The notes beneath the pieces were generated by a model. That model was not told the DNA's origin. It searched no databases and saw only the letters and a program-made list of their open reading frames with translations. From positions 1 to 35,836 of the forward strand of contig ONJS01000027.1 of assembly GCA_900318205.1 (NCBI GenBank): a stretch of DNA of 35,836 bases, read 5' to 3'. Position numbers and translations under genes: made by a program. Every line of letters begins with the position of its first letter. Position 1 is the first letter of the stretch. This document shows, piece by piece, positions 4,892-35,578 of the stretch. The stretch is from an uncultured Prevotellaceae bacterium. Lineage in GTDB: Bacteria > Bacteroidota > Bacteroidia > Bacteroidales > Muribaculaceae.

Positions 4892-5024
4892 TGTGCTATA
4901 AGAATTTATTAGTGTCCGGGGAAAATCTGGTTTCTTATTATAACGGTCTTGGTACAAGCTGATTGGATGGGATGCTGAGATAAGGGGCCTGAAATAGGCG
5001 TGAGTTACTTCTGGTCGGATCCGA

Positions 5025-5080
5025 GGGGACGGTTCCTGAGTCCAAAATGCAAGGCATTTTGTTACACAGAAACCGTCCCC
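5025..5080. repeat. nested REP-like inverted repeat
   Basis: The outer arms GGGGACGGTT (5025-5034) and AACCGTCCCC (5071-5080) are perfectly complementary. Nested inside are CAAAATGC (5043-5050) and GCATTTTG (5054-5061), also perfect, with a three-base loop. Outer arms of the GGGGACGGTT type occur, as I recall, in REP-like elements associated with IS200-like (Y1) REP-associated transposases in many bacteria. No such transposase is in this window, so the assignment is an inference from the arm sequence and the geometry. Confidence 0.6.
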
Positions 5081-5285: not shown

Positions 5286-6785
5286 TTACTTCATGAACTT
5301 GGCGAAGTCGGTCTTGCGCATGTCGCCGTCGTGAATCAGCGTGCTGTGCATGGCTAAGGCGATGTCGGGATTCATCATCACGTGGCCCTTCTTGGCGAGG
5401 TTGAGGTACTCACGCAACAGGGGGCGATAAACGGGATGAGCAGCCTTCTCGATGATTTCGTGGGCACTCTGTACGGGATCCTTGCCGCGCAGGTCGGCGA
5501 TACCCTGGTCGGTGATGATGATATCTACCGAGTGGGGGTTGTGGTCGGGATAGGAAACCATAGGCACGATGGTGCTGATGCAGTCGTCCTTCTTGATCGA
5601 CGGGCACAGGAAGATGCTGATGTAGGCATTGCGGGTGAAGTCGCCCGAGCCGCCGACACCGTTCATCAGGCGTGTACCGCTCACGTGGGTTGAATTGATG
5701 TGACCGTAGATGTCGGCCTCGATGGCGGTGTTCATCGTGATGACACCCAGACGGCGAACCACCTCGGGGTTGTTGCTGATCTCGCTGGGACGCATGAGCA
5801 CCTTGCCATGCAGGGCCTCGCCCTTCTTGAAGAACTCATCCATAGCCTGGCTGGAGAAGGTCATTGAGCAGGTGCTGGCAAACTTGCACTTACCGCTCTC
5901 GAGCAGCTCGAGCACGCTGTCTTGGATAACCTCGGTGTACATCTCAAAGGGAGGAATGTCGTCGCTCTTGTCAAGGGCGTCGAGCACGGCGTTGGCGATG
6001 TTGCCCACACCACTCTGCAGGGGCAGGAACTCCTTGGGAATGCGGCCAGCCTTCAACTCATTGACGAGGAAAGCGCACACGTTGTGGCCGATGGCTGCGG
6101 TCACGTCGTCAACCGGGGTAAAGGCACCCTCCTTGCTGATGGGCAGCGAAGTCTTGACAACGCCCAGCACCTTCTTGGGGTCAACATGGGCGGTGGGAGT
6201 ACCCACGCGGTCGTGAGGCGTATAGATGGGAATCTCGCGGCGGCAAGGCGGGTCGAGCGGCGTGTAAACGTCGTGCATGCCCAGGATGCTCTCGGGAATC
6301 TGGTCGTTGACCTCGACAATCACCTTGTCGGCCATCTTGAGCCAGGTGGCGGTGTTGCCCATCGAGGTACCCAGCACGAGTTCGCCGTCATCGGTGATGC
6401 TCTGAGCCTCAACGATGGCGATGTCCATCTTGCCGTAGAAACCATAGCGGAACTCCTGTGCCAGCTCGCTCAGGTGGCGGTCGTTATAGTGGATAGCGTT
6501 GGCGTTGATGGCCTTGCGCATATCGGGGTGTGACTGGTAAGGGGTGCGGAAGTTCAGGGCGTCGGCACGCGTCAGCTCACCGTCGATGTGGTCGCTGGTC
6601 GATGCGCCGGAGAAAAGGTTGATCTTGAACTCACGGCCTGCCTCATGCTCGCGCTTGGCGCGCTCGGCAATGGCAACAGGCACTGCTTGAGGACAACCGG
6701 GTGATGTAAAGCCCGAAACACCTACTGTGAAGCCATTTTGTACAAATTCGGCGGCTTCCTCGGCCGAAAGAATCGGATAAATCAT
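5286..6785 (-). CDS. succinyl-CoA:acetate CoA-transferase (acetyl-CoA hydrolase/transferase family)
   Basis: This 499-residue protein is full length for the family that includes AarC, Cat1 and ScpC. It moves CoA between acyl groups, typically succinyl-CoA or propionyl-CoA and acetate, in the cytosol. The conserved blocks are easily aligned from memory with AarC: SGVGNIANAVLDAL near 258-271; the catalytic glutamate in TEVIQD (Glu285); EADIYGHINSTHV near 356-368; the oxyanion-loop motif GVGGSGDF at 376-383; and DQGIADLRG near 426-434. In a succinate- and propionate-forming anaerobe it would balance CoA between succinate, propionate and acetate. The exact substrates cannot be told from sequence. 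It is the last gene of the minus-strand operon that begins at 11054, 88 bases after pgi. A period-7 array fills that spacer and ends next to its start codon. Confidence 0.9.
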   Translation of the reverse strand: MIYPILSAEEAAEFVQNGFTVGVSGFTSPGCPQAVPVAIAERAKREHEAGREFKINLFSGASTSDHIDGELTRADALNFRTPYQSHPDMRKAINANAIHYNDRHLSELAQEFRYGFYGKMDIAIVEAQSITDDGELVLGTSMGNTATWLKMADKVIVEVNDQIPESILGMHDVYTPLDPPCRREIPIYTPHDRVGTPTAHVDPKKVLGVVKTSLPISKEGAFTPVDDVTAAIGHNVCAFLVNELKAGRIPKEFLPLQSGVGNIANAVLDALDKSDDIPPFEMYTEVIQDSVLELLESGKCKFASTCSMTFSSQAMDEFFKKGEALHGKVLMRPSEISNNPEVVRRLGVITMNTAIEADIYGHINSTHVSGTRLMNGVGGSGDFTRNAYISIFLCPSIKKDDCISTIVPMVSYPDHNPHSVDIIITDQGIADLRGKDPVQSAHEIIEKAAHPVYRPLLREYLNLAKKGHVMMNPDIALAMHSTLIHDGDMRKTDFAKFMK

Positions 6786-6789
6786 TTTA

Positions 6790-6862
6790 TTAGTTTTAAG
6801 TTATAAGTTTTTTAGTTGTCAGTTTTTTAGTTGTCAGTTGTCAGTTTTTAGTTGTCAGGATA
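6790..6862 (-). repeat. period-7 array, ACTGACA/ACTAAAA type, before the CoA-transferase
   Basis: Read on the minus strand, about nine seven-base units follow one another: ACTAAAA, ACTGACA, ACTGACA, ACTAAAA, ACTGACA, ACTAAAA, ACTTATA, ACTTAAA, ACTAATA, with two single-A insertions. The last unit ends a few bases before the ATG at 6785. The array occupies most of the pgi/CoA-transferase spacer. Confidence 0.8.
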
Positions 6863-8199: not shown

Positions 8200-8226
8200 A
8201 AATAATATTGTTTTTTAGTTAATTCT

Positions 8227-8254
8227 CTAATCTCTAACCACTAATCACTAATCA
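8227..8254. repeat. period-7 array, CTAATCA type, four units
   Basis: On the plus strand the units are CTAATCT, CTAACCA, CTAATCA and CTAATCA, exactly contiguous. On the transcribed sense strand (minus) they read as TTAG-type units placed just after the GNAT-like gene's stop and before pgi. Confidence 0.75.
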
Positions 8255-8283
8255 ATTTGATTTGCTCTGGTGCAAATCAAATT
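8254..8283. repeat. hairpin overlapping the stop codon of the GNAT-like gene
   Basis: AATTTGATTTGC (8254-8265) pairs perfectly with GCAAATCAAATT (8272-8283) around a six-base loop. The stop codon at 8279-8277 lies in the arm. No T-run follows on the minus strand, so it is more likely an mRNA stability or processing element within the operon than a terminator. Confidence 0.6.
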
Positions 8284-9407
8284 TCTTTGGTATAGGCGCG
8301 GCGGCGCTTGTGCTGGTCATACTCAAAGTATTCCCATTGCTTGAGCACCTTGGAGTTGAGTTCCAGCTCGTGATTGCTCTCGGCATGGGTGTAGCCATGC
8401 TTGTTGAACACGGGGATGAGGTCATCGAAGATGAGTGAGTTCACACCCTTGTTCTGGAGCTCGGGCTTGACGGCAATGAGCATCAGGTCCACCACATTGT
8501 TATGCTTGAAGGCGTCAAGCAGGTATTTCCAGCCCATGGGGAACAGACGGCCACGGCTCTTGATGAGTGCCTTGGACATCGAGGGGATGGTGATGCCCAC
8601 ACCGACGAGTTCGCGCGTGTCTTTGTCGATGACCATCGACAGGTCGTCGAGCGGCAGGAAGGGCAGGTACATCTTGATATAGTGCTTGATCTGCTTGTCG
8701 GTGAGCGGCGAGTAGCCGAACAACTCGTCATAGGCCACGTTGATCAGTTTGAAGATGGCGTCGCCGTAGTCCTTGACCAGTTGCTTGCGGTCGGTGTACT
8801 TGATGGTCGTCACATTCATGCGTTGACTTATCAGGGTGGCGATGCGGTGCATCTTCTCGGGAACCTCTTTGGGGATGGTGATCAGGAACTCCAGCCAGTC
8901 CACATACTTGACGAAACCCAAGCGCTCCAGGTGCTTGTGATAATAGGCGTGGCTGTACACGGCGCCTGTGGTGCCAATGCGGTCAAAGCCCTCGACGAGC
9001 AAACCCTCGGGATCCATGTCGGTGAAGCCTAGGGGACCTGTTAGGAGTTCCATGCCTTTGCCCTTGGCCCACTTGGTCACGGCATCGATGAGGGCGTCGG
9101 CAACCTCGGCATCGTCAATGAAGTCGATGTAGCTGAAGCGGGCCTCTTTCTTGTTGTTGCGCTCGTTGACCACCTTGTTGATGATGCCGGCGATGCGTCC
9201 CACGATTTTCCCGTTGCGGTAAGCCAGGAAATAGGTGGCCTCGCAGAAATCAAATGCCGGGTTCTTGTCGGGTCGCAGGGTGTTCACTTCATCGGTGACC
9301 AGCGGCGGAACATAGTACTCGCTGTCGCGGTAGATGACATCGATGGGGAAGTGCACAAACTTGAGCAGGTTGCGCTTGGTGGGTTGGATTTCTCTGATTT
9401 CAACCAT
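8277..9407 (-). CDS. GNAT-fold acetyltransferase-like protein, YghO-like
   Basis: The 376-residue soluble protein has no signal peptide or membrane segment. The N-terminal part (about 1-180) contains an acyltransferase-like strand pattern: FLAYRNGKIVGRIAGIIN near 61-78, then YIDFID and GPLGFTDMDPEGLLVEGF near 125-142. The C-terminal part contains LMLIAVKPELQNKGVNSLIFDDLIP, which resembles the acetyl-CoA-binding V-x-P-x-x-x-x-x-G region of GNAT enzymes. This layout recalls the E. coli YghO family of uncharacterised double-GNAT proteins, widely kept in Bacteroidetes. The substrate is unknown. It sits between the 36-residue membrane protein and pgi in one operon; a period-7 array (9409-9445) directly precedes its start. 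The fold call is moderate; the reaction is unassigned. Confidence 0.75.
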   Translation of the reverse strand: MVEIREIQPTKRNLLKFVHFPIDVIYRDSEYYVPPLVTDEVNTLRPDKNPAFDFCEATYFLAYRNGKIVGRIAGIINKVVNERNNKKEARFSYIDFIDDAEVADALIDAVTKWAKGKGMELLTGPLGFTDMDPEGLLVEGFDRIGTTGAVYSHAYYHKHLERLGFVKYVDWLEFLITIPKEVPEKMHRIATLISQRMNVTTIKYTDRKQLVKDYGDAIFKLINVAYDELFGYSPLTDKQIKHYIKMYLPFLPLDDLSMVIDKDTRELVGVGITIPSMSKALIKSRGRLFPMGWKYLLDAFKHNNVVDLMLIAVKPELQNKGVNSLIFDDLIPVFNKHGYTHAESNHELELNSKVLKQWEYFEYDQHKRRRAYTKEI

Positions 9408-9408
9408 A

Positions 9409-9445
9409 TTTTAGTTTTTAGTTGCCAGTTTTTAGTTGTCAGTTG
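9409..9445 (-). repeat. period-7 array, ACTGACA/ACTAAAA type, before the GNAT-like gene
   Basis: On the minus strand five contiguous units ACTGACA, ACTAAAA, ACTGGCA, ACTAAAA, ACTAAAA end immediately before TATG, where ATG is the start at 9407. Confidence 0.8.
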
Positions 9446-9453
9446 GATGGATT

Positions 9454-9471
9454 CTAGATTTTCTAGACTAT
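9454..9471. repeat. period-9 array, CTAGA type, two units
   Basis: Two nine-base units, CTAGATTTT and CTAGACTAT, begin at 9454 and 9463. The second overlaps the stop codon of the 36-residue miniprotein gene. It sits beside the ACTAAAA array in the same spacer. Confidence 0.55.
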
Positions 9472-11242: not shown

Positions 11243-11298
11243 CTAAAGTCTAACGTCTAAAGTCTAACGTCTAAAGTCTAACGTCTAAAGTCTAATAG
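11243..11298. repeat. period-7 array, alternating CTAAAGT and CTAACGT
   Basis: Seven exact units alternate CTAAAGT and CTAACGT from 11243 to 11291, that is 3.5 copies of a 14-base unit; a degenerate eighth unit CTAATAG follows. On the sense strand of the secreted protein gene (minus) it reads as TTAGAC-type units placed between its stop codon and the palindromic terminator. Confidence 0.9.
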
Positions 11299-11313
11299 CT
11301 TAAGCCTAAAGCC

Positions 11314-12393
11314 TTACTTCACAACCTTAACAGCGCTGGTGGTGCCGTCGGTGTAGGTGGTAACAACGATGGTCAGGCCGTTAGCCTCGGTCATCTCCTG
11401 ACCAGCCATGTTGAAGTAGCGTACGCCAGCAACGGTCTTGCCGTTCATCATCTCGCTGATAGCCGTGGGAGGCTCGGGCTCAACAACGAACTCATAAGCA
11501 ATCTGCTCGCTGGGGAGCTTGTTAGGAGCTACGGCATAAGCCTCAACGCGGTGCTTGCCATCACCCTCGAAGGACAGGATGTCCTCGTAAACAGCCCACT
11601 CGGTGTACTCCTCTTCACCGGGATAGAGAACGCGGTAGTAGATAACGCTGCCCTCATCGGTGGGAAGGATCTCAACAAAGTAAGCGTGGATACCGTCGGT
11701 GGTGTAGCCGTTGAAGACAGGAGCACCAGTCTTCTCGGTGGGCTCAACGGGAGGAACATCGCCGCCTTCCTCATAGGTGAAGGTTGCCATGGGCAAGAAG
11801 GTCTCGAAATACTTATTCGTGCCACTGTAGGCGCTCTCATAAACATAGATGGAGCAGTACTCGGGGACACCAGTGATGCGACCATAGAAGTAGGTGGTGC
11901 CAAACGAGCCACCCTCAACGACCATAGACTCAACGAGGAGGTTGCCGCCTTCATAGGTGAACGGCTCATCCAGTTGGAAGGTCATGTACATGTCACCCAC
12001 CTCGGGAACCGTGGTGGCAACGGGGGTAGCACCAACGATAGTGGATGTGCTGAAACCATCCTCATCAACGACCTTGAGTGCCAGTTGAATCTTGGCATTC
12101 TCAAAGTTGATGAAGTTAGTGTTACTGATGTAGGGATCCAGATCGTTCTCAAGGTAATACTGGGCGAGGGTGTAGAACTTCACCTCGGTGATTTGACCGC
12201 CGACCATATCGGTAAGCATGTCGGCAGGATAAATCGACTGGGCAATGGTGCCCTCGGTGTCAGCCCAGAATCCGTAAACGGGAACATGATTGGAATAGCC
12301 GTCGTAACCACCATTGTCACAAACGGTCAGCACGTTGGCCTGAGCGGCAAATGCCATTGCGGCCACAGCGAAAAGAGTAAACAATTTCTTCAT
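11314..12393 (-). CDS. secreted protein with Bacteroidales C-terminal tail
   Basis: The 359-residue protein has a typical Sec signal peptide, MKKLFTLFAVAAMAFAAQA, with likely cleavage before Asn20. The mature part is acidic and beta-rich, with many Tyr, Thr and Gly residues. An FEGDGKHRVEAYAV segment near 280-295 looks like a beta-sandwich repeat of the chitobiase/CHB type, although this is uncertain. From about residue 323 the tail reads GVRYFNMAGQEM and goes on to a DGTTSAVKVVK ending. Such tails are common at the C-terminus of secreted Prevotella and related proteins, where they resemble type IX secretion sorting domains. The cargo function is unknown. It has its own promoter and terminator. 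Confidence 0.8.
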   Translation of the reverse strand: MKKLFTLFAVAAMAFAAQANVLTVCDNGGYDGYSNHVPVYGFWADTEGTIAQSIYPADMLTDMVGGQITEVKFYTLAQYYLENDLDPYISNTNFINFENAKIQLALKVVDEDGFSTSTIVGATPVATTVPEVGDMYMTFQLDEPFTYEGGNLLVESMVVEGGSFGTTYFYGRITGVPEYCSIYVYESAYSGTNKYFETFLPMATFTYEEGGDVPPVEPTEKTGAPVFNGYTTDGIHAYFVEILPTDEGSVIYYRVLYPGEEEYTEWAVYEDILSFEGDGKHRVEAYAVAPNKLPSEQIAYEFVVEPEPPTAISEMMNGKTVAGVRYFNMAGQEMTEANGLTIVVTTYTDGTTSAVKVVK

Positions 12394-32796: not shown

Positions 32797-32807
32797 TTGT
32801 CAAAGGT

Positions 32808-32849
32808 CTAAAATCTAACGTCTAACGTCTAATATCTATTATCTAACAC
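32808..32849 (+). repeat. period-7 array, CTAACGT type, six units
   Basis: Six contiguous units: CTAAAAT, CTAACGT, CTAACGT, CTAATAT, CTATTAT, CTAACAC. They end three bases before the ATG of aroK and fill the 56-base spacer after the epimerase gene. Confidence 0.85.
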
Positions 32850-34149: not shown

Positions 34150-34686
34150 ATGAAAGAGAAACCGATGATAATGAAATATCGTGACGAGTTGGACAAGAGC
34201 TACGGCGTGGCCGGCATGGCGCTGGGCCTGTCGGTGCTTGATGCCAGCGACCTGTTCACGGCGGTTACGCTTGATGGCGATGACACGGGCTGCATACAGT
34301 TCACGCCTGAGTTCTTCTTTGCGGGGAACCCACGGCTGTCACCGCGTGGCGCTTGGAAATATATCCTGGGACATTACCGCATCTCCGTCGGACTGGCTGT
34401 TGCTAATGCCCTGTGTCGCCGCATGGTGCTTGACAACGACAAAGCCGATAACCAATTGCGTGACCAGTTGTTCAATATCGCCTTTGCCGATGGCAGGGAC
34501 TATTGCCAACTTGAGCGTGACGAGGTGGAGCCTATCTTCGATGAGGCTTTCGAGAACATGACGCGCCTGTTCGGTGACGCACGTGTCCGTCATGCGATGG
34601 ATTCGTTTGTTGATACTTTACAGCAGCGGCGCACCCTGTCGCATATCGATGTCATCGATATCCTTCAGCAGTTAAATCTCGCTTAA
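34150..34686 (+). CDS. conserved-looking protein of unknown function, 178 residues
   Basis: The soluble, acidic protein begins MKEKPMIMKYRDELDKSYG; later ATGs at 34165 and 34171 are possible starts. It contains an FTPEFFFAGNPRLSPRGAWKYI segment near 51-72 and a helical C-terminal half with many charged residues. No signal, membrane helix or metal motif is visible. I do not recognise the family. It is 11 bases after rnhA and co-transcribed with it, and it could be an accessory of nucleic-acid metabolism only by context. Codon use looks like that of its neighbours. Confidence 0.72.
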   Translation: MKEKPMIMKYRDELDKSYGVAGMALGLSVLDASDLFTAVTLDGDDTGCIQFTPEFFFAGNPRLSPRGAWKYILGHYRISVGLAVANALCRRMVLDNDKADNQLRDQLFNIAFADGRDYCQLERDEVEPIFDEAFENMTRLFGDARVRHAMDSFVDTLQQRRTLSHIDVIDILQQLNLA

Positions 34687-34732
34687 TCCGTGTTTTTTAT
34701 ATTATATAATGTGTAATAGCATCCCACATTAT

Positions 34733-34788
34733 ACTGAAAACTGAAAACTGCCAACTAAAAACTGACAACTGATAACTAACAACTAAAA
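34733..34788 (+). repeat. period-7 array, ACTGACA/ACTAAAA type, eight units
   Basis: Eight exact contiguous units: ACTGAAA, ACTGAAA, ACTGCCA, ACTAAAA, ACTGACA, ACTGATA, ACTAACA, ACTAAAA. They end ten bases before the ATG at 34799. Orientation relative to the gene is the same as in the arrays at 6790-6862 and 9409-9445. Confidence 0.88.
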
Positions 34789-34798
34789 TACTAAAGCC

Positions 34799-35578
34799 AT
34801 GCAGACTGTACTATTTCACTCAACGATATACGGACCTATCCACAGTCGCCGACTGGGAATGTCCCTCGGCATTAATCTCATGCCCAACGATGGCAAGATC
34901 TGTTCCTTTGACTGCCTCTATTGTGAAGCGGGTTTCAACGCCCAGGGTCCCGGCAAGGACGGGGTGCCGACACGAGAGATGGTCAAGAAGCAACTCAAAC
35001 GCAAACTTACCGAGATGAAAGAGGCAGGCCAGACGCTTGACGTCATCACTTTCTCAGGCAATGGTGAGCCCACTCTGCACCCCGAGTTCAAAAAGGTGGT
35101 GGAAGATGTCCTGAGATTGCGCACGGAGTTTTTCCCCAATGCCAAGGTGTCGGTGCTGAGCAATTCGACGATGGCAGGAAAGCCTGCTGTGGCCGAGGCA
35201 CTCCTCAAGGTGGACAATAACATCCTCAAACTTGACAGTGCTATGCCGCGCACCTTCATCACCCTCAACCGTCCCACTTCGCCCAATTGTCTCCCCGACG
35301 GCGTGATTGCCGATCTCAAGAAATTTAACGGCCAGTGTATAGTACAGACCATCATGATTCGTGGTGAATACGATGGCGTGAAGTTTGATAACACCACCGA
35401 CGAGGAACTGGATGCCCTGTTGAGCGCCTATCTCCAAATCCAGCCTCGCGAAGTGATGCTCTATAGTATCGACCGCAAGACACCCGCCGAGAATCTTGTA
35501 AAAGTGTCCAAGGAGGAAATGGAGCGCATCGCCCAGCGTTTCCGTGATGCGGGCTTGAAAGTTCAGGTTAACGCTTGA
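34799..35578 (+). CDS. radical SAM protein (COG0731-like)
   Basis: The 259-residue enzyme has the SAM-cluster cysteines Cys35, Cys39 and Cys42 in CSFDCLYC and the glycine-rich SAM loop in FSGNGEPTLHPEF near 84-97. Its opening STIYGPIHSRRLGMSLGINLMP is typical of the small radical SAM group COG0731, whose substrates are mostly unknown. No second cluster motif is seen. It follows the unknown 178-residue gene after 112 bases filled by a period-7 array. It is probably the last gene of the rnhA transcript. Confidence 0.85.
   Translation: MQTVLFHSTIYGPIHSRRLGMSLGINLMPNDGKICSFDCLYCEAGFNAQGPGKDGVPTREMVKKQLKRKLTEMKEAGQTLDVITFSGNGEPTLHPEFKKVVEDVLRLRTEFFPNAKVSVLSNSTMAGKPAVAEALLKVDNNILKLDSAMPRTFITLNRPTSPNCLPDGVIADLKKFNGQCIVQTIMIRGEYDGVKFDNTTDEELDALLSAYLQIQPREVMLYSIDRKTPAENLVKVSKEEMERIAQRFRDAGLKVQVNA

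Follow-up and report, generated by a model that had tools for sequence, protein, structure and literature searches.

Heptad arrays at gene edges of a rumen Muribaculaceae genome resemble the arms of mirrored elements like the intervening sequences of 23S rRNA

Results

Heptad arrays at gene edges in the window

The window analysed here is a stretch of 35,836 nt, contig ONJS01000027.1 of assembly GCA_900318205.1; its host genome is a draft rumen Muribaculaceae metagenome-assembled genome (MAG) of 3.62 Mb in 53 contigs. Tandem arrays of 7-nt units lie before the start codons or past the stop codons of several of its genes (Table 1). A sequence-only reading of the window had singled out three arrays at starts under the consensus ACT(A/G)(A/C/T)(A/C)A, and these three exist at the places given, in sense orientation as claimed, once small corrections to distance and register are made. 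The eight exact units counted at 34733-34788 are eight consecutive ACTNNNA units, of which the first five in a row fit the stricter consensus and the sixth (ACTGATA) does not; the five units assigned to 9409-9445 are indeed five, at 9409-9443, one of which (ACTGGCA) violates the consensus; and the roughly nine units placed at 6790-6862 are nine complete units plus a partial unit at 6788-6858, with an extra A between the three blocks. The distance from array to ATG, put at 3 to 10 bases, is actually 10 nt at 34799, 1 nt at 9407 and 2 nt at 6785. Further arrays in the window (8224-8254, 11243-11311 and 32799-32848) use units other than those of that reading.

Table 1. Heptad arrays of the window with adjoining genes and motifs
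Feature	Position	Strand	Remarks
Gene 3' of the 6788 array	5286..6785	-	Succinate/butyryl-CoA transferase family
Leader array, about nine units	6788..6858	-	Three blocks, extra A between blocks; 2 nt from ATG 6785
Trailer array, sense GATTAGT (CTAATCA on +)	8224..8254	-	Past the stop of 8277-9407
Gene 3' of the 9409 array	8277..9407	-	NCBIfam match: none
Leader array, five units	9409..9443	-	1 nt from ATG 9407
Two TCTAGA palindromes, 9 nt apart	9453..9467	-	Immediately upstream of the 9409 array
Trailer array, sense TTAGACT/TTAGACG (CTAAAGT/CTAACGT on +)	11243..11311	-	Past the stop of 11314-12393
Leader array, CTAACGT/CTAAAAT/CTAACAT units	32799..32848	+	Upstream of ATG 32853
Perfect 9-bp hairpin, TATAATGTG/CACATTATA	34705..34733	+	11-nt loop containing GCATCC; abuts the 34733 array
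Leader array, eight ACTNNNA units of CTGA/CTAA type	34733..34788	+	C-strand in sense; ATG 34799 lies 10 nt downstream
Gene 3' of the 34733 array	34799..35578	+	Radical-SAM-like; all matches below curated cut-offs

Upstream of the 34733 array we found no G-arm, only the 9-bp hairpin with its GCATCC loop, which is possibly the remnant of an element centre, and a terminator scan of positions 34600-34820 returned none. The predicted fold of this leader was unremarkable against shuffled sequences (z +0.5); such an unstructured leader is compatible with a permissive one but demonstrates no enhancement. The array lies between protein genes and is without pairing terminal inverted repeats, and in both respects it differs from the intervening sequences (IVSs) of 23S rRNA; none of the genome's seven matches to PF05635, the family of the IVP/S23 four-helix-bundle genes, is on the window's contig. 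When rotated, the unit ACTGATA of the 34733 array reads TAACTGA, a heptamer known from other bacteria; exact TAACTGA direct repeats were absent from the units read at 34733-34788, 9409-9443 and 6788-6858.

Abundance and polarity across the genome

Three consecutive ACTNNNA units occurred at 396 places genome-wide (206+190), compared with 1+0 for the reversed pattern; here, as in the CTRANNN counts given below, overlapping places were counted and long arrays were thus entered several times. A 400-kb sample picked regardless of hits contained 21 strong segments of period 7, and a Markov-1 shuffle none. Among the other periods from 2 to 24, the same sample yielded 5 segments for period 9, 16 for period 14, 3 for period 18, 10 for period 21 and one each for periods 11, 20 and 22, the rest giving none.

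Arrays were surveyed in 38-39 stretches of the host genome, together 769 kb or a fifth of it (of the 38 counted, 14 were picked around hits and 24 regardless of hits; 20 are termed blind), with gene calls from a simple hexamer caller whose starts were shifted to the farthest ATG, such that individual distances may err. At a score of at least 14, 84 arrays were found, none of them within called genes, and their unit families mostly share a CTRA core (CTGAAAA, CTGACAA, CTAACTC, CTAACTT, CTAAAGT, CTAACGT, CTAATCA, CTAAACT and others). Seven of the 84 had no neighbour on one side and were dropped; in 67 of the 77 usable arrays, the 3' end of the C-rich strand was nearer the ORF edge, with 9 contrary cases and 1 tie. 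The count was 54 versus 9 when restricted to arrays at most 20 nt from an ORF edge, and 26 versus 5 in the blind stretches alone. Two further species of the genus displayed the same polarity, G009 in 14 of 17 arrays (stretches picked regardless of hits) and G018 in 15 of 15 (mostly around hits), and the count pooled over three genomes was 96 versus 12 (binomial 2e-17).

The 67 rule-keeping arrays bordered 27 starts and 40 stops. Seen from the mRNA, CTGACAA-like repeats stand right before starts and TTAGACT-like repeats right after stops, the stop codon sometimes lying inside the array. Unit families differed in the edge that they occupy: CTAACTC/T arrays were found at stops only (11/11), and CTGAAAA/CTGACAA arrays at 14 starts versus 3 stops among those keeping the rule, with 4 more breaking it. 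A GGG run on the G-strand occurred in merely 4 of the 77 arrays of the host genome, and a quadruplex reading was set aside on this count.

Some trailers have further features beside them. GATTAG-type trailers were located directly 3' of a hairpin that starts at or near the stop (L035:15387-15440, L037:8919-8974, L067:1949-2007, L185:1408-1472 and window 8224-8276), and GCTCGC words (TGCTCGCnnnGCTCGCA and variants) lie as a further module between stops and CTAAACT/CTAATCA trailers (L040:4260-4330 and 5000-5070, L041:8180-8240, L044:8390-8410). G029, which belongs to another family of the same order, has heptads of its own (CTGAGAG, CTAAACG, CTGAACG), indicating that arrays are also present outside the genus.

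Arrays facing starts

The consensus of the sequence-only reading had been expected to show strand bias and a preference for the bases before starts, and a scan with this exact unit bore out both. Three or more such units in a row formed 24 arrays in 769 kb, 22 of which were usable, the other 2 being left out; 17 of the 22 face a start in sense, 14 of these within 60 nt, and the reversed pattern gave 0. The remaining five lie antisense to a gene and point at its stop. The blind stretches alone held 7 exact-unit arrays, 6 of them usable, with four facing starts and two facing stops. The interpretation of the arrays as leader signals is thereby supported in part: the exact unit favours starts, but starts are part only of the system, given the 27 starts and 40 stops of the 67 rule-keeping arrays.

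Two properties that had been ascribed to the array genes are real and are shared by the genome at large. SD-like 4-mers were found in 28 of 475 leaders versus 32 when shuffled, so that the lack of a Shine-Dalgarno site is a genome-wide property and nothing peculiar to array genes; mimicry of such a site by the arrays was rejected on the same figures. Similarly, A makes up 43.6% of positions -20 to -1 across leaders, and A-richness is the genome norm without arrays too.

Turnover between relatives

For comparison we used 80 relatives kept from a protein search, all of them Bacteroidales MAGs, mostly from ruminants, filed as Muribaculaceae, Prevotellaceae, Porphyromonadaceae or Bacteroidales; the one named relative is Candidatus Sodaliphilus aphodohippi, at 73% identity. 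CTRANNN places per genome ranged from 0 to 681 across 24 genus relatives, in a count whose backward control is nonzero in array-rich genomes (25 versus 526 in the host genome). In the leader of the CoA-transferase gene (5286-6785), an array scored at least 14 in 11 of 36 loci at 91% identity or more and was weak or missing in the others, its units among relatives being of ACTAAAA, ACTAGAA or GACTAAG type; two genomes with an identical CoA-transferase protein have about six units there, compared with the window's nine to ten. At the place of the 8224-8254 trailer, several relatives have arrays as well, of CTAATC or CTAAAC type.

Between the host genome and its sister G041, 70 spacers were comparable (flanks 75-100% identical), and 13 of them held an array in either genome. 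Some arrays persist between the two with a changed unit number, and two heptad spacers of the host genome are TCTAGANNN arrays in G041; where the flanks were 97-100% identical, we observed point changes only. The truA spacer was followed through 30 genus loci, with the truA start located by tblastn in all of them: four have an IVP cassette, seven a mirrored octamer hairpin, eleven TCTAGANNN arrays (including the host genome), one CTATAGNNN and seven other sequence, two of the last carrying one-sided heptads.

The TCTAGANNN arrays are built of nonamers (a palindrome plus 3 nt) and occupy truA spacers where sister species have heptads (L251, L256-L258, L262, L264, L265, L267, L268, L271 and L273), and the same holds for the CTATAGNNN nonamer array of L263. 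Sites of nonamer type also occur in the sister spacer opposite L049:3553-3636 and at 9453-9467 of the window. Downstream of an ORF with a dockerin-like repeat at its end lies a non-coding stretch, L051:8168-8400, parts of which have dozens of matching places in G041; the whole 4-kb query containing this stretch gave 47 matches there.

IVP/S23 genes between mirrored arrays

One spacer measures 490 nt in the host genome versus 76 in the sister, and the longer version has mirrored CTAARGT arrays with an IVP/S23 four-helix-bundle gene enclosed by them. All three PF05635 genes over the cut-off in the host genome are flanked by mirrored heptad arrays, which belong to three families; the other four of its seven matches are weaker, reside in longer ORFs and do not have the look of fossils between solo arrays. 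The protein encoded at L057:9686-10063 passes both TIGR02436 (131.5 bits, cut-off 24) and PF05635 (136.3 bits, cut-off 33.8), and an assignment to Avd of diversity-generating retroelements was rejected (33 bits versus the NF033474 cut-off of 80). PF05635 exceeds its cut-off in 52 of 61 genus genomes and 153 of 198 Bacteroidota genomes.

The 200-nt flanks of IVP genes were compared by an inverted-repeat score with a threshold of at least 12, and 155 like-sized genes, all from the host genome, served as the control. The genus set comprised 32 loci (3 own, 29 others), in 29 of which an ORF was found, and the phylum set 30 loci, of which 27 were used; three loci were dropped from each where the motif filter gave no ORF, and both sets consist of the best-scoring match per genome rather than a random draw. 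Genus loci scored at least 16 in 18 of 29 and at least 12 in 23 of 29 cases, compared with 2/155 and 4/155 control genes. In the phylum set, 10 of 27 loci scored at least 12 and 17 scored below, 8 of 27 reached at least 14 versus 2/155 for mismatched flanks, and 8-nt units and extra mismatches were common. Plasmids yielded 29 matching records, mostly cyanobacterial. Among the 12 examined (10 cyanobacteria, Gemmatirosa and Azospirillum), 11 scored at least 12 with full 200-nt flanks and 9 with flanks clipped at annotated neighbours where these are given; the 132 mismatched-flank controls of the plasmid set had their 95% point at 10.5 and reached 25 at most. In Azospirillum, the IVP gene is located within a large-subunit (23S) rRNA gene, with GAGGACG-type heptads as its arms.

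The mirrored flanks had a direction. Among those scoring at least 12, the 5' arm was the G-richer one in 18 of 23 genus, 10 of 10 phylum and 11 of 11 plasmid loci. The IVP gene was on the strand of its upstream neighbour at all loci with both neighbours called (26/26 genus and 19/19 phylum; loci at the edge of a contig or locus, 3 from the genus and 8 from the phylum set, were left out). Of the 10 IVP genes annotated on plasmids, 3 oppose both neighbours.

At one genus locus, represented in five species (L202, L206, L212, L214 and L217), the two arms had changed jointly: they fall into three families, with own arms scoring 17-32 and cross-family combinations 6-11. Other shared genus loci were less clean, in that pairing across species was as good as within one (cross scores up to 30), and of the 29 genus left flanks only 13 had their own right flank as the single best partner. 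Duplex energies favoured own over mismatched flanks in the three sets (p 1.7e-7, 1.1e-5 and 5.7e-4). Counts of IVP genes and arrays were moderately correlated across 25 draft genomes (rho 0.53, p 0.006, without tree correction).

Mirrored pairs and centre words

Wherever two arrays share a spacer, the G-strand array comes first and the C-strand array second (16/16), and in 10 of the 16 pairs GCATCCGC or its complement lies between them. Complementarity was seen in only 6 of 16 IVP-free pairs, and stem formation as the purpose of every pair is unsupported for that reason. GCATCCGC was enriched in spacers, with 52 occurrences versus 8.1 expected from coding sequence, and 14 of the 35 arrays that face starts and 12 of the 42 that face stops were immediately preceded by GCATCC or GCGGATGC (expected 0.029 per 35 nt of spacer). 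Among the 24 arrays at most 60 nt from a start, an upstream G-array, centre word or palindrome array accompanied 13, and 11 had none of these; an upstream G-array as such was detectable for only 10 of the 24. Predicted RNA folds were far below those of shuffled sequences for two IVP cassettes (z -8.2 and -4.7) and one IVP-free pair (z -7.8).

Discussion

On balance, we consider that the heptad arrays are probably the arms of mirrored, IVS-like short-repeat elements in gene spacers, a reading that draws on the observed polarity, mirrored order, IVP association, between-species turnover and joint arm change at one locus. In such an element, G-strand heptads at one ORF edge would come first and C-strand heptads at the other edge last, enclosing either a small ORF or a short centre that is frequently GCATCCGC; the ORF, where present, would be the IVP/S23 four-helix-bundle gene (PF05635). 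In the transcribed spacer, base pairing of the two arms could give a long stem that carries the centre or the IVP ORF as its loop, an arrangement that would reproduce the anatomy of the 23S rRNA IVSs that are excised by RNase III. We infer that stems form in vivo and are processed by RNase III, that solo arrays descend from mirrored elements and that the elements are mobile. The 34733 leader array would then be a 3' arm whose 5' partner has been lost or degraded, and its A-rich, G-poor unit may be of the kind tolerated by a leader without a Shine-Dalgarno site. The mirrored arrays around IVP genes argue for an IVS-like element rather than a dedicated leader code; effects of the arrays on translation may be secondary, and a direct role in translation is possible. 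Several observations count against the IVS-like reading: the surveyed fifth of the genome has 84 arrays, compared with three IVP genes that pass the cut-off; no IVP fossils were seen among the PF05635 matches; some arrays are unpaired or have mismatched partners; and the phylum loci score lower.

Template switching at mirrored repeats is the process of quasi-palindrome correction. Together with slippage, it could have produced the arrays by neutral growth, tolerated in spacers only, with IVP genes merely settling there. We regard this as unlikely: the copy number and the units do change fast, the matched arms at IVP loci could be mutual copies, and period 7 is favoured in many bacteria, for which slippage is cited (PMC4679880, PMC4692102), but neutral growth is at odds with the uniform polarity at both starts and stops (67/77), with the preference of families for one edge (CTAACTC/T, 11/11 at stops) and with the repeated occurrence, across several phyla, of mirrored arms on either side of the same gene family.

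Under a leader code, in line with the sequence-only reading, selection would favour CTGA-type arrays as leaders for translation initiation; ribosomal protein S1 or a different RNA-binding protein that recognises the repeats would read them, and expression would be tuned by the number of units. That most exact-unit arrays face a start (17/22, 14 within 60 nt), that CTGAAAA/CTGACAA arrays prefer starts (14 versus 3 stops among rule-keeping arrays), that the genome is without Shine-Dalgarno sites, that the 34733 leader is predicted to be unstructured and that ACTA-type units are kept in the leaders of one ortholog across several species would all suit such a code, which MacGregor proposed for TAACTGA (PMC4679880). 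However, oppositely oriented arrays at stops are at least equally common, A-rich leaders are normal without arrays and the IVP association is left unexplained, and we hold a leader code to be quite unlikely. Selection of the arrays for transcription control or for the structure of the nucleic acid (a terminator, a Rho site on the C-strand or a quadruplex) is very improbable, with a G-strand GGG run in only 4 of 77 arrays and a negative terminator scan at 34600-34820 set against a polarity that matches the GGGAATC heptads with proposed quadruplexes (PMC4692102) and a hairpin that precedes some trailers.

As probable arms of IVS-like elements, the arrays can be set beside several known systems. 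Like the 23S rRNA IVSs with an S23p/IVP ORF (PF05635, TIGR02436), the IVP cassettes have an ORF looped between terminal inverted repeats (own 3/3, genus 23/29, phylum 10/27, plasmid 11/12). One published 23S IVS has two to three GACAGAT heptads, in a number that varies between strains, and RNase III cuts at the first of them (PMC4990558); the Azospirillum copy, with its heptad arms, likewise lies in large-subunit rRNA. The other copies described here differ in residing in protein-gene spacers, most arrays have no IVP ORF, and cleavage is what we infer for them. The heptads GGGAATC and GGGGA(C/T)T of Xanthomonas and Nostoc, for which Rehm et al. 2015 proposed quadruplexes (PMC4692102), resemble the present ones in forming many 7-nt arrays that are mostly intergenic and differ in length between species, with the G-strand after stops or antisense before starts and, in Xanthomonas, with mirrored pairs. 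The present arrays differ from them in their many unit families and rare G-tracts, and do not have the G-tracts that a quadruplex would use. The available text of PMC4692102 makes no mention of 'four helix', 'helix bundle', 'intervening' or 'XCC0516'.

TAACTGA heptamers were described by MacGregor 2015 before start codons in Beggiatoaceae, cyanobacteria and five Bacteroidetes (PMC4679880). They share with our arrays the position directly before starts, the mostly forward orientation and the usual absence of a Shine-Dalgarno site; in contrast, many units are used here, stops are occupied too and TAACTGA itself is absent from the 34733 array. TAACTGA counts in Thiomargarita are given in PMC4853749, and four-helix-bundle genes are merely listed in PMC8700078. 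A literature search for the cyanobacterial STRR heptanucleotide repeats gave no paper. Earlier publications already cover heptads with such polarity as well as the heptads of one 23S IVS; nothing was found in the literature searched, which comprised no preprints and few subscription papers, that connects heptad arrays with IVP genes in general.

REPIN/RAYT and MITE-type elements are numerous short mirrored elements accompanied by few copies of a candidate helper gene. The many short mirrored arrays and few IVP genes resemble that arrangement; unlike in those systems, no transposase-like gene was seen beside the arrays, and IVP is a four-helix bundle that is Avd-like only below the NF033474 cut-off.

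More tentatively, and with doubt outweighing confidence, the heptad, octad and nonamer arrays and the IVP genes might together constitute a single class of intervening elements, spanning phyla, that invades spacers and rRNA helices. IVP would act in trans on paired arrays, such that few IVP genes could sustain hundreds of arrays; the classical 23S IVS would be the best-known member of the class, and TAACTGA, GGGAATC and perhaps the STRR repeats would be its footprints. No function is agreed on for the heptad repeats reported from unrelated bacteria, and none is known for IVP/S23 proteins (PMC4990558); a common architecture would join the two and make each testable. An IVS-like architecture would also explain the fast turnover of some gut Bacteroidota spacers, and it cautions against taking such arrays for start-site codes.

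IVP genes were additionally observed within CRISPR-cas operons of cyanobacterial plasmids (L281, L283 and L286), in the order cas6-IVP-cas4 twice and cas10-IVP-cmr3 once.
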